In this document: positions 56,452 to 61,177 of the stretch, piece by piece | Layout of the letters: each line of letters starts with the position of its first letter | How positions within the stretch are numbered: position 1 is the stretch's first letter | Assembly: GCF_014054725.1 (NCBI RefSeq) | Contig: NZ_CP059563.1 | Location: 1,701,749-1,765,748, forward strand | DNA: 64,000 bases | Direction: 5' to 3' | Origin: Conchiformibius steedae | Lineage (GTDB): Bacteria > Pseudomonadota > Gammaproteobacteria > Burkholderiales > Neisseriaceae | Translations under genes and position numbers: made by a program | Notes under the pieces: model-generated | Told to the model about the DNA's origin: nothing | The model's database searches: none | What the model saw: only the letters and a program-made list of their open reading frames with translations

Positions 56452-58239
56452 TTATACGCCGCTGCCTTGTGCTTTCAAACGCTCGGGCGCATCCAGCTTG
56501 GACAGCGCCGACAAATACGCTTTGGCGGTTGCCACCAGCACATCGGTATCCGCACCCTGACCGTTGGCGATTTTACCGCCACGCGCCAGCCGTACCATGG
56601 TTTCGCCTTGGCTTTCCGTGCCTTGAGTAACAGCGTTTACCGAATAAATCTGCAATTCCGCGCCGCTTTGCGCCACGCTTTCAATGGCTTTGAAAATGGC
56701 ATCTACAGGACCTGAACCCGTAGATTGGGCGTGTTTTTCCTCGCCGCGCACGCTGAACACGATTTCGGCACGCGGCAGTTCGCCCGTTTCGGTGGTAATA
56801 CGCTGCGAAATAAATTTGTAATGGTCTTGCGACAGGCTCACCAAACCGTCTGACACCAGCGCGTGCAAATCTTCGTCAAAAATCTCGCGTTTTTTGTCTG
56901 CCAATTCTTTAAAACGGGCAAAGGCGGCGTTCAGGGCTTCTTCGCTGCCCAATTCAATACCCAATTCTGCCAATTTGGTCTTAAAGGCGTTGCGCCCCGA
57001 CAGCTTGCCCAAAGTTAAGCGGTTGGCAGCCCAGCCCACTGATTCAGCAGACATAATTTCATAGGTTTCGCGGTGTTTGAGTACGCCGTCCTGATGAATG
57101 CCCGATTCGTGCGAAAAGGCGTTCGCGCCAACCACGGCTTTATTCGGTTGCACAGGATAACCTGTGATGCCAGACACCAAACGCGAAGCGGGAACAATTT
57201 GGGTGGTGTCAATGCCTGTTTCAAAACCAAACACATCGTGGCGCACTTTTAATGCCATCACAATTTCTTCAATGGCAGCGTTGCCTGCGCGTTCGCCCAA
57301 GCCGTTTACTGTGCATTCCACCTGACGCGCCCCGCCGCGCAAAGCCGCCAACGAATTGGCAACCGCCAAGCCCAAGTCATTATGGCAGTGCGCCGACCAA
57401 ATCACTTTGTCGCCGCCCTGTGTGCCTGCAATCAGTTCGCGGAAAAAGGCTTCGGTTCGGTGGGGAACGGAATAACCCACCGTATCGGGAATATTGACGG
57501 TGGTTGCGCCCGCTTCAATCACCGCGCCGCAAATCTCGGTTAAAAAGCCCAATTCGGAACGCAGCGCGTCTTCACAGGAAAATTCCACATCATCGGTATA
57601 TTCTTTGGCGAGTTTTACCGCTTTTACCGCTGCTTCAATTACTTGCTGCGGTTTCATTTTCAGCTTGTATTCCATGTGAATGGGGCTGGTGGCGATAAAA
57701 GTGTGAATGCGCGGACGGGCTGCATGCGATACCGCTTCGCCTGCCAAACGGATATCACGTTCCACCGCACGCGACAGCGAACACACGGTAGATTGGGTAA
57801 TGGTTTTGGCAATTTCGCTTACCGCTTCAAAATCCCCAGGGCTGGCGGCAGCAAAACCCGCTTCAATCACATCTACGCCCAGTTTTTCCAATTGGCGGGC
57901 AATGCGGATTTTGTCGTCTTTGCTCATGGCGGCACCAGGCGACTGTTCGCCGTCGCGCAAGGTGGTGTCAAAAATAATGATGCGGTTGTCGGCGCTCATA
58001 ATCGGTTTCTCCAAAGTGGTTTGCTGGTGCATAAAGGCATTTAAGTCCAAAGGTCTGCCCTGTAATTCGGCAAGGGTGGCGAGTTTTTGCAGCTGATGCA
58101 GGGGCATAGAGCCGCGTGCGCGCCATTTGTAGATGGCAGCCGTGCCAACAGGCTGGTCGGGAAAGTGTTGTTTTAAAGCTTGGGCAAGCGCGTTTACGCC
58201 GCCAAAATAGGCAATCAGCCGTTCAATGTCTGCTTGCAT
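56452..58239 (-). CDS. leuA: 2-Isopropylmalate synthase with in-frame N-terminal helix-turn-helix domain
   Basis: The continuous reading frame encodes 595 residues. Residues 81-595 are a full Leu[43 protein letters not shown] and the C-terminal leucine-binding regulatory domain ([15 protein letters not shown]). LeuA condenses acetyl-CoA with 2-oxoisovalerate, the first step of leucine synthesis. Residues 1-75 look like a YdaS/Cro-type DNA-binding domain ([11 protein letters not shown], then [21 protein letters not shown]). No stop codon separates the two. An internal ATG at 57999 has TTGGAG nine bases upstream and would give a normal 515-residue LeuA, while the first ATG at 58239 lacks a good ribosome site. 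So either a fused protein, or a regulator with LeuA read from the internal start, or both. Confidence 0.93.
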
Positions 58240-58241
58240 GG

Positions 58242-58353
58242 TTGTCTAAAAAGGGGAAAGAATGGCGGCGATAATAATCAGTTTTAGACGGTTTGGCAAA
58301 TTGTTTTTGAAATTTTGTGAAACATGGCGATTTTTGCGATAATTTTTAGACAA
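58242..58353. promoter_or_regulatory. Three TTTTAGACAA-like sites upstream of leuA
   Basis: TTGTCTAAAA at 58242-58251 (directly before the start codon), TTTTAGACGG at 58282-58291 (between the -10 and -35 elements) and TTTTAGACAA at 58344-58353. Spacing and promoter overlap suggest operators, possibly for the DNA-binding domain encoded at the start of the same frame. Confidence 0.5.
58271..58299 (-). promoter_or_regulatory. Sigma-70 type promoter of the HTH-leuA frame
   Basis: On the minus strand TTGCCA (58299-58294), a 17-base spacer and TATTAT (58276-58271), giving a leader of about 25 bases before the first ATG. Confidence 0.6.
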
Positions 58354-58434
58354 ATTGTATAAACCACAATCTTTCTGCGATTAGGCATCACGCCCAAATC
58401 ATTGTAAAATGGCGTTTATTTATCCACCAAAATC

Positions 58435-59070
58435 ATGAAAATAAAATATTTAGCTTCTACAGATGCCTTGCCTGCGCTACTGGCATTGGTTTTTATTGGT
58501 CTGACATTGTGGTCGGGCATCGCCCCCGCCGACCGCGCTGTGTGGTATGCCGAAATGTTGCCCGTGCTGGCGGTTTTTGTGCTGCTGCTGTGTACCTTCC
58601 GCCGCTTCCGTTTCAGTAATACGGCTTATGTACTGATGGCGTGTTGGCTGTTTTTGCACACGGTGGGCGCACGTTACACCTTTGCCGATGTGCCGTTTGA
58701 ATGGGGCAACCGCCTGTTGTCGCCGCTATTGGGCGAAGGGCGCAACCATTTTGACCGTTTCGCCCATTATATTATTGGTTTTTATGCCTTTCCGATGGCA
58801 GAATGGCTGTTGCGGCGCGGCAAATGCACCTTTGGCACGGCGATGTTTTTCGGATTGTTTTTTGTGATGTCGGTAGCGGCGGCGTACGAAATCATTGAAT
58901 GGCAATACGCCGTGATGGAAGGCGGACAGGCAGGCATTGAATTTCTTGGTTCGCAAGGCGATGTGTGGGACGCGCAAAAAGATATGTTGGCAGACACCTT
59001 GGGCGCACTCACCGCATTGGCATTATTTGCCTGCTTGCGCCCCGATTTATCCCCAGCAACAACAACATGA
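58435..59070 (+). CDS. DUF2238 inner-membrane protein (YjdF type)
   Basis: A 211-residue protein with about six membrane helices and the DUF2238 signature: HTVGARYTFADVPF, NHFDRFAHYIIGF and AAAYEIIEWQYA, then DVWDAQKDMLADTLGA. The His/Asp/Glu residues in the membrane suggest an enzyme or metal site, but the role is unknown. It overlaps the HAD gene by ATGA. Confidence 0.92.
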   Translation: MKIKYLASTDALPALLALVFIGLTLWSGIAPADRAVWYAEMLPVLAVFVLLLCTFRRFRFSNTAYVLMACWLFLHTVGARYTFADVPFEWGNRLLSPLLGEGRNHFDRFAHYIIGFYAFPMAEWLLRRGKCTFGTAMFFGLFFVMSVAAAYEIIEWQYAVMEGGQAGIEFLGSQGDVWDAQKDMLADTLGALTALALFACLRPDLSPATTT

Positions 59071-59626: not shown

Positions 59627-61177
59627 ATGCGGACAAACAAAAAATGGTGGCAAATCAGCGCAGCAGCAGTGGCAGCGGCGGTTTTGCTGTTGGGCGGGAC
59701 GCTGGCAGGTATGCGCGGCACAGACGCTGCCGCTGCCGATACGCCCTTGCAGCAGTTAAAACAACTGCCGCAGGCAAACGGCAAATCCGCCGAAGCCTTG
59801 CTGCAAGCCAAACGCCCTACTTTGGTTAAATTTTGGGCGAGCTGGTGTCCTTTGTGTTTGAGCGAGTTGGGCGAAACCGAAAAATGGGCACAGGAAGCCG
59901 AATTCCAACGCGCCAATTTGCTTACCGTGGCATCGCCTGCCTTTTTGGGCGAGAAAAAACAACCCGATTTCAGCCAATGGTATGGCGGTTTGGATTACGC
60001 CAAACTGCCCGTGCTGCTGAACGAAGGCGGTTCGCTGGCAAAATCATTGGGGATTAAAGTGTATCCGTCTTGGGTGCTGTTGGACGAAAAAGGCGAAGTT
60101 GCCCGTGTGGTGCGCGGCAGCTTAAACCGCGCCCAAGCCCTTGCCCTGCTCGACAACCCGCAGGCAGAACTCAAATCCCTGCAACAATCGTTTTACCAAC
60201 CCGATAAAAAAACAGGAAACAAACCGATGAATACCCAAACCATTTATCTGGCAGGCGGCTGCTTTTGGGGCTTGGAAGCCTATTTCCAACGCATTGACGG
60301 CGTAGCCGATGCCGTATCGGGCTATGCCAACGGCAAAACCGAAAAACCCAGCTATGAAGACGTGGTTCACCGCAACACAGGACACGCCGAAACCGTTAAA
60401 GTGGTGTACGATGCCGACAAACTCAGTTTGGACGACATTTTGCAATACTATTTCCGCGTGATTGACCCCACCAGCCTGAACCAACAGGGCAACGACCGCG
60501 GCACCCAATACCGCACGGGCGTGTATTACACCAATCCTGCCGAAAAAAGCGTGATTGACGCAGCGTTTGCCCGCGAGCAGAAAAAACACAGTCAAAAAAT
60601 CGTGGTGGAAAACCTACCCCTGCAACGCTTTGACGAAGCAGAAGAATACCATCAGGATTATTTGTTAAAAAACCCCAACGGCTACTGCCATATTGACATC
60701 CGCAAAGCAGACGAACCGCTGCCGCATCAAAAAACCTCTGCCAAACCATCAGCAGACGAACTGCGCCGCACCCTTACCGCCGAGCAATACCGCATCACCC
60801 AAGAAAACGGCACAGAACGTGCCTTCAGCCACGAATACGACCATTTGTTTGCCGATGGCATTTATGTGGACGTGGTGGGTGGACAGCCTCTGTTCAGCTC
60901 TGCCGACAAATACGATTCGGGCTGCGGTTGGCCCAGCTTTACCCGCCCGATTGAAGCTACTGCCGTTACCGAACACGACGACAACAGCTACAATATGCAC
61001 CGCGTGGAAGTGCGCAGCCAACAGGCAGATTCACATTTGGGACACGTTTTCCCCGATGGTCCGCAGGATAAAGGCGGATTGCGCTACTGCATTAACGGCG
61101 CGAGTTTGAAATTTATCCCGCTGGAACAAATGGACGCGCAAGGCTACGGCGCGTGGAAAGACAAAGTGAAAAAATAG
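59627..61177 (+). CDS. msrAB: Thioredoxin / methionine sulfoxide reductase A and B fusion (PilB type)
   Basis: 516 residues in three parts: signal anchor and thioredoxin-like domain with CPLC (74-77), MsrA with catalytic Cys212 in GGCFWG, and MsrB with catalytic Cys488 in RYCIN. It repairs both S- and R-methionine sulfoxide in exported proteins, the first domain supplying electrons. The same three-domain arrangement is known from Neisseria. GGAGAG precedes the ATG. Confidence 0.97.

Follow-up and report, generated by a model that had tools for sequence, protein, structure and literature searches.

A helix-turn-helix domain fused to LeuA in Neisseriales and its conserved 17-bp dyads: a putative enzyme-repressor of leucine biosynthesis

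The window, that is, the whole analysed stretch of 64,000 nucleotides from Conchiformibius steedae, carries on the minus strand a gene (56452..58239) encoding a protein of 595 amino acids, in which a helix-turn-helix (HTH) domain of the carph-isopro type is followed by a linker and by 2-isopropylmalate synthase with a LeuA_dimer domain. The frame is identified as LeuA by NF002087 (879 bits; cut-off 729) and TIGR00973 (688 bits; cut-off 598.7), and it contains the Pfam domains HMGL-like, HCS_D2 and LeuA_dimer (PF08502, E 1.1e-34). The HTH domain (residues 5–65; 58045..58227, minus strand) belongs to NCBIfam NF046037.1, covering model positions 1–54 of 54 and scoring 77.3 bits with an 80-residue query and 72.6 bits with the whole protein, about twice the cut-off of 38. 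Membership in P22_Cro (PF14549) was considered as well and rejected, the score of 17 bits being under the Pfam gathering cut-off of 30.2.

The AlphaFold model of the HTH domain is compact and helical (pLDDT 83), and its nearest solved fold is Cro of phage N15 (probability up to 0.95, rmsd 1.2 over 54 columns), with a Foldseek E of 0.4–1.1 that is not significant. The linker between the HTH and the enzyme (residues 72–83; 57991..58026, minus strand) has pLDDT below 50 in the full-length model and is probably flexible. As the full-length model (pLDDT 73, pTM 0.51) is poor at residues 72–83, 352–413 and 446–470, we claim no domain arrangement. The closest LeuA chain in the PDB is 3rmj, which we take to be the meningococcal LeuA, and the match runs from residue 81 onward; the PDB sequence search gave no chain matching the HTH domain.

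The initial annotation had pointed to three similar boxes within 112 bases around the promoter of this gene, and their positions stand. Two exact copies of TTTTAGACAA lie in opposite orientation at 58242–58251 (minus strand) and 58344–58353 (plus strand), and the copy matching in eight of ten positions, TTTTAGACGG, lies at 58282–58291 (plus strand). The middle box is situated, as had been noted, between the -35 and -10 elements, TTGCCA (58294..58299) and TATTAT (58271..58276), both predicted on the minus strand by consensus match only; these two elements, 17 bp apart, make up the sole promoter-like site that 58150–58460 contains on the leuA strand. The third box occupies the ribosome-site position, being followed by two bases and then by the ATG at 58239.

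The 10-mer as a unit did not hold. There are only two exact copies of TTTTAGACAA in the 64-kb window, and at up to two mismatches the bare word is not enriched there (92 matches versus 75.8 in shuffles, with 4 of 100 shuffles reaching 92). Its genome-wide count, proposed in the initial annotation as a check, gave no signal: 20 exact copies in 2.2 Mb versus 29 for the reversed control. Of the copies outside the window (n = 18), four lie outside frames of at least 80 codons and the rest inside such frames; by simple arithmetic from the 20 exact copies, about 0.02 pairs within 112 bp are expected in the whole genome. Thus, in the absence of genome-wide enrichment, the 10-mer alone is no evidence.

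When the leuA upstream regions of the family were read together, the boxes turned out to be half-sites of a longer, 17-bp dyad with the consensus TTAGAC-N5-GTCTAA, placed once upstream, once over the -35 element and the spacer, and once before the ATG. The upstream candidate operator O1 (TTAGACAAATTGTATAA; 58346..58362, no strand assigned) includes most of the box at 58344–58353, is conserved in the family and is the best match in the genome, being the sole site with one mismatch to TTAGACANNNTGTCTAA, while the next eight sites have two. The candidate operator O2 (TTAGACGGTTTGGCAAA; 58284..58300, no strand assigned), whose centre is 62 bp from that of O1, overlaps the -35 element and the spacer, includes most of the box at 58282–58291, and has two to three mismatches (two to TTRGACN5GTCYAA). 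O3 is the half-site TTTTAGACAA at 58242..58251 (minus strand) directly before the ATG, its second half being poor in this genome. At up to three mismatches the dyad is not enriched in its own genome (79 forward sites versus 114 in the reversed control), hence only the top of the site list is informative.

The enzyme and the DNA-binding domain share one open frame in most relatives. Among the family genomes (n = 83), 78 have a LeuA match, and in 76 of the 83 this match starts at residues 1–4, i.e. includes the HTH; as for the others, one is cut by a contig end (G030), one lacks the HTH (G063), and five have no match. A scan of named genomes with an HTH alignment confirmed 104 relatives, of which 80 were kept, and at 79 of these 80 loci the HTH continues in frame into LeuA. 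At L364 (Paludibacterium denitrificans) the HTH frame ends after 69 residues, owing to a frameshift, an assembly error or a split gene. The fusion is found in Neisseria (N. gonorrhoeae included), Snodgrassella, Chromobacterium, Vogesella, Chitinibacter and relatives; the lineages looked up for Conchiformibius, Chitinibacter and Chromobacterium place them in Neisseriales, and we assume the same for the remaining named genera. It was also seen under two ill-fitting names, Beta proteobacterium L13 and Xenophilus sp. AP218F; the latter locus (L352) carries HTH-LeuA together with a perfect O1 dyad, and as Xenophilus is a genus of Burkholderiales, this is either a misnamed genome or a transfer.

In most genera of the family, the leuA upstream regions have boxes in the same three places. 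Identical leuA regions were counted once (77 reduced to 76), G063 was kept separate as a control, and G030, whose contig ends inside the domain, was excluded. TTRGACN5GTCYAA was then found before leuA with at most one mismatch in 51 of the 76 distinct regions and with at most two in 71, compared to shuffle means of 0.03 and 1.23, five regions being without it; these sequences are related, so that here and below the counts are not independent events. Thus, the enrichment upstream of leuA in relatives, on which the initial annotation had made its proposal depend, is very strong. In 66 of the 76 relatives, TTRGAC lies at most 25 bases from the leuA start. Several g8 genomes have a perfect TTAGACAAAATGTCTAA as O1, and O3 there overlaps the apparent start codon. 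At the outer loci (L322–L366 minus L332 and L357) the dyad was observed in 40 of 43 cases, 20 of them with at most one mismatch, this count and the family count not being blind, since the family regions had themselves supplied the motif and its 6-5-6 form was set after the outer loci were known.

For the wider-order leuA test, the carA family test and the second carA set, the pattern was fixed beforehand. The wider-order test covered 30 of 112 matches (111 of 130 genomes): at up to two mismatches, the dyad preceded 14 of 15 leuA genes with the HTH, at least three of these 15 loci (G000, G016, G431) having been known earlier, and 0 of 15 leuA genes without it. The HTH-less G063, a loss control consisting of one g8 draft genome, has a LeuA frame that starts near the internal start of the other genomes and is 81% identical to the LeuA of Snodgrassella and of G064; its best dyad has four mismatches, so that both the domain and the operator are missing. 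An operator conserved at the gene's own promoter is therefore tied to the domain. These comparisons of sequences argue for the autoregulation by the downstream-encoded domain that the initial annotation had suggested. It did not recognise the dyad, and the targeting of leuC, the parallel with CarA and the second start within the frame had no place in it either.

Genome-wide, the number of dyads with at most one mismatch was above the control in 11 of 12 genomes, the exception being G005 (0 versus 5). G064 has just two exact dyads in its whole genome, each of them at leuA; G072 has two sites at up to one mismatch, neither of them at leuA or leuC. Of the 21 additional dyads of relatives, found in 20 stretches, 18 are inside frames of at least 100 codons, two precede ilvC (G082, G002), and one is outside such frames (G055). 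In G066, TTRGACANNNTGTCYAA is unusually frequent (18 sites versus 3 in the control), two of these sites being at leuA and leuC; the 11 sites that were inspected (ten stretches, L217–L226) are all in open frames, and the excess probably reflects codon usage.

A second target was observed at the next pathway step. In C. steedae, one of the exact boxes outside frames lies some 100 bases ahead of leuC, which is also preceded by a dyad with three mismatches, and in the family the dyad was found in 69 of 77 leuC regions at up to two mismatches and in 50 at up to one, compared to 1.2 and 0.1 in shuffles (the set excludes L141 because of a wrong offset, and G004, G060 and G062 because of a contig edge or a partial match). 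The dyad is missing from eight regions, those of G040, G053 and G081 and of every g8 genome (three) and g6 genome (two) examined; thus, the leuC branch is not universal, leuC being co-targeted in 9 of 12 genera.

The ilvC gene served as a negative control, with the dyad in 2 of 49 regions of 180 bases. Among its 50 loci, 49 of which were usable (L241 had a wrong offset), repeated sites were found only in G082, G002 and G003, while half-sites occur twice in G057 and once each in G009, G008, G000 and G066. The LeuA-type dyads or half-sites before ilvC in G082, G002 and G003 were seen at L231 (position 1501), L264, L263 and L273. The putative sites of these three genomes are a lineage-specific extension of the predicted regulon; as such sites are confined to few genomes, general control of ilvC is not claimed. 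Upstream of ilvB in 24 genomes, the expression used retrieved no dyad, and single half-sites were seen in eight. A wider branched-chain regulon, considered as a candidate, was rejected on these grounds.

The same domain is found on a second enzyme. In 15 of 398 Pseudomonadota genomes the carph-isopro domain is above the cut-off, and the eleven domain-bearing stretches that were read comprise five fusions to CarA, the carbamoyl-phosphate synthase small subunit (recognised by eye from the sequence), three small proteins, one HTH-LeuA (L398) and two long proteins. In the last two (L391, L396) the domain lies within a protein with a membrane-like segment and no adjoining enzyme. All five CarA fusions come from the family f50, which is unrelated to the HTH-LeuA family. 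Upstream of HTH-carA, first in these five fusions, we observed a different 17-bp dyad of the same 6-5-6 layout, TGGGAA-N5-TTCCCA.

The carA loci (L403–L432 and L464–L482) cover all but about ten of the 58 matches in f50. Among the usable family loci (n = 28, three of which were known earlier), this dyad is present at up to one mismatch in 26 and at up to two in 27, compared to 0.03 and 0.23 in shuffles; L417 and L418, left out of this first count because of wrong offsets, are the same genes as L480 and L481, both with the dyad. At least two dyads were found at 20 of the 28 loci, with the centres 38–40 bases apart at 17 of these. In the second set (loci within L464–L482), the dyad was found at 18 of 19 further HTH-carA loci, L475 having none, and the loss control, which is the single genome G507, has a carA match without the HTH and no dyad. 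Of 14 exact CarA-type dyads in ten genomes, 12 are directly before HTH-carA; since eight of these genomes were already known to have an exact carA site, the new information is that no more than two copies occur elsewhere. G503 has no exact dyad of this type, and in G376 the single exact site is elsewhere than carA. In the cross-check at up to two mismatches, the LeuA-type dyad was found in 0 of 28 carA regions and the CarA-type dyad in 0 of 77 leuA regions. One domain on two enzymes of committed steps, accompanied by two dyads of one geometry, is the strongest evidence for recognition of the sites by the domain itself.

In 102 of the 110 regions with both sites, the distance between the centres of O1 and O2 falls in one of three clusters: 52–54 (12 regions, all g10), 60–64 (53 regions, comprising most Neisseriaceae genera and five outer loci) and 71–75 (37 regions, comprising the outer genera and g6); in the remaining regions it is 84 in one and 26–44 in seven. 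With the clusters about one helical turn apart, the face of the DNA seems to matter. The data fix the period only loosely (the resultant is 0.73 at both 10 and 10.5 bp, compared to 0.71 at 11 and 0.65 at 12), and as the regions are related and sites with up to four mismatches were allowed, the spacing analysis is no formal test.

The leuA frame also contains a predicted second translation start, the ATG of residue 81 (57997..57999, minus strand), preceded at 9 nt by the Shine-Dalgarno (SD) sequence GGAG (58009..58012, minus strand). This internal methionine, at the junction of the HTH and LeuA, corresponds to where ordinary LeuA starts. In 70 of 79 relatives (Neisseriaceae 32 of 37, outer loci 38 of 42), the 16 bases from -20 to -5 of the internal methionine include an SD-like word (AGGA, GGAG or GAGG); by way of background, such a word precedes 5.7% of codons and 9.3% of the remaining methionine codons in Neisseriaceae genes, and 12.4% and 11.8%, respectively, in the outer genera. 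GGAG itself is 9 or 10 bases before the internal ATG in 63 of 79. In Neisseriaceae, the residues encoded under it are LEK or LER in most cases, GAG being used though it accounts for 20% of their Glu codons; in the outer genera they are GR, WR, RS or QEH. Thus, the nucleotides are kept while the reading frame and the residues vary, which indicates an internal ribosome site, and leuA probably yields both HTH-LeuA and plain LeuA. The internal SD could also be a relic of the gene as it was before the fusion.

A strict SD precedes the long start in 9 of 37 Neisseriaceae (24 of 37 with a looser pattern) and in 41 of 42 outer loci; hence a weak long start, considered as a general rule, was rejected, as it holds only in Neisseriaceae. 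A general internal start in carA was rejected too: among the 28 loci, 13 have an internal ATG with an SD, five an ATG without an SD, and ten no ATG, so that the two-start claim is kept for leuA alone.

LeuA is dimeric and is inhibited by leucine through its C-terminal domain. Comparative analysis establishes the fusion, the putative operators, their coupling to the domain, the leuC sites and the internal SD; on this footing, we infer with a probability of roughly 0.83 that the fused HTH reads the dyads and represses leuA. The leuA product would then be a bifunctional enzyme-repressor, where the dimeric enzyme would hold two Cro-like HTHs together, placing a dimer on each 17-bp dyad. With O1 upstream, O2 over the -35 element and the spacer, and O3 at the ribosome site, RNA polymerase would be blocked and leuA repressed, O2 and O3 blocking transcription and possibly translation, and the dyads before leuC would extend the repression to the next pathway step. 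The spacing steps between clades might reflect two HTH pairs of one oligomer bound to the same DNA face, presumably with looping. The second start with its conserved SD would provide LeuA without the HTH, so that the output of the enzyme need not equal that of the repressor.

As for the signal, we lean towards leucine as the co-repressor, based on the LeuA_dimer domain: leucine bound there would both inhibit the enzyme and favour DNA binding, and feedback inhibition and repression would thus share one sensor. Feedback inhibition of LeuA by leucine is stated in a review (PMC10464499). Within the core reading there is also the variant that autoregulation is real and leucine-independent, HTH-LeuA simply keeping its own concentration constant. 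This would agree with the contrast between the long start and the internal start in Neisseriaceae (a strict SD in 9 of 37 versus an SD-like word in 32 of 37), whereas the strict SD on 41 of 42 long starts in the outer genera, the presence of the leucine-binding domain, and the joint targeting of leuC (9 of 12 genera), more in keeping with control by the end product than with self-homeostasis, make it unlikely.

The opposite sign of regulation, where HTH-LeuA would activate leuA and leuC with O1 as the activator site until released by leucine, draws on the position of O1, which in most clades lies upstream of the promoter at an activator-like distance. We consider it very unlikely, as O2 on the -35 element and the spacer and O3 in the leader are in the usual positions for repression, and in the outer genera a half-site of O2 apparently itself forms the -35 element TTGACA (by eye).

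The boxes might also be bound by a separate regulator encoded elsewhere, the HTH of LeuA having another role or none. Lrp-type control is usual for leucine genes, which counts for such a regulator. In a gonococcal RNA-seq study, moreover, leu1 is induced without oxygen, lower leucine is suggested, and Lrp is discussed in connection with leu1 (PMC3032703). For this gene HTH-LeuA offers a candidate direct alternative to Lrp. A separate regulator is nevertheless highly improbable, as the boxes track the fused domain both in the wider order (14 of 15 versus 0 of 15) and in G063, and as the CarA-linked dyad of equal geometry would be left unexplained. Chance AT-rich words, consistent with the lack of genome-wide enrichment of the bare 10-mer and of the dyad at three mismatches, are already refuted by conservation far above shuffles and by the coupling to the domain, and an RNA element (leader attenuation, a riboswitch) finds neither an Rfam match in 58050–58500 nor a terminator-like site in 58150–58460, leaving this explanation a practically negligible probability.

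Returning to repression by the fused domain, the LeuA and CarA systems can be joined in a broader scheme that we put forward tentatively, at somewhat less than even odds. Carph-isopro proteins would in general be self-repressing enzymes of committed steps, in which the small Cro-like domain, borne by LeuA (in Neisseriales) or by CarA (in an unrelated family), recognises a 17-bp dyad of the 6-5-6 form at the promoter of its own gene, and the allosteric sensor of the end product sets transcription of the pathway; in the case of leuA, the two products would form mixed oligomers that tune repression and bridge operators in helical register.

PutA, NadR and BirA are trigger enzymes with a fused DNA-binding domain. 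HTH-LeuA resembles them in combining a catalytic part and a DNA-binding domain in one polypeptide, with genes of its own pathway as the (here predicted) targets, and differs in being another enzyme with an unrelated Cro-like HTH, in acting at a committed anabolic step, in carrying a domain for allosteric control by the end product, and in its predicted second product without the HTH. The Cro proteins of phages N15 and P22 act at several short dyad operators around a promoter; the HTH of LeuA has N15 Cro as its nearest predicted fold and likewise several short dyads at the promoter, but here it is probably the enzyme that provides the dimer. Elsewhere, leucine control of leuA is exerted by Lrp, LeuO or attenuation, with the regulator separate from the enzyme; the target gene and the end product are the same here, while HTH-LeuA would need no separate regulator. 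Enzymes repressing their own genes are a known kind; within the literature searched, what appears new is the HTH-LeuA family with its operators, the parallel in CarA and the double start that is predicted.

The NF046037 model names a domain, and no function, operator or regulon was seen attached to it. The name carph-isopro itself, as we read it, fits carbamoyl-phosphate synthase and isopropylmalate synthase; the full-text literature search for it returned no paper, and in the literature searched, which contains few subscription papers, we found no description of the fusion or of leuA control in Neisseria. The domain, for which no described role was found, thus gains a likely function, operator and regulon. 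Leucine control of leuA would be accounted for across an order, Neisseria gonorrhoeae included, with no separate regulator. Work on the enzyme without the N-terminal 80 residues, such as the solved fragment 3rmj, which matches only from residue 81, would miss the regulatory half. Two enzymes sharing one domain and having different dyads also provide a natural experiment on the change of the recognition site of a Cro-like protein.

On the other side of the intergenic region, a divergent gene encodes a DUF2238 membrane protein (58435–59070, plus strand), and O1 is located approximately 73–90 bases before its start. A plus-strand promoter-like site (58315–58343) lies between O1 and O2, and the DUF2238 gene could be co-regulated. 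A pair of dyad-like sites elsewhere in the same genome (C3:426307) was rejected as a further target, since it falls within an open frame. Further along the window, a long plus-strand frame (59627–61177) apparently joins a thioredoxin-like domain to methionine sulfoxide reductase domains, as judged by eye from its translation.
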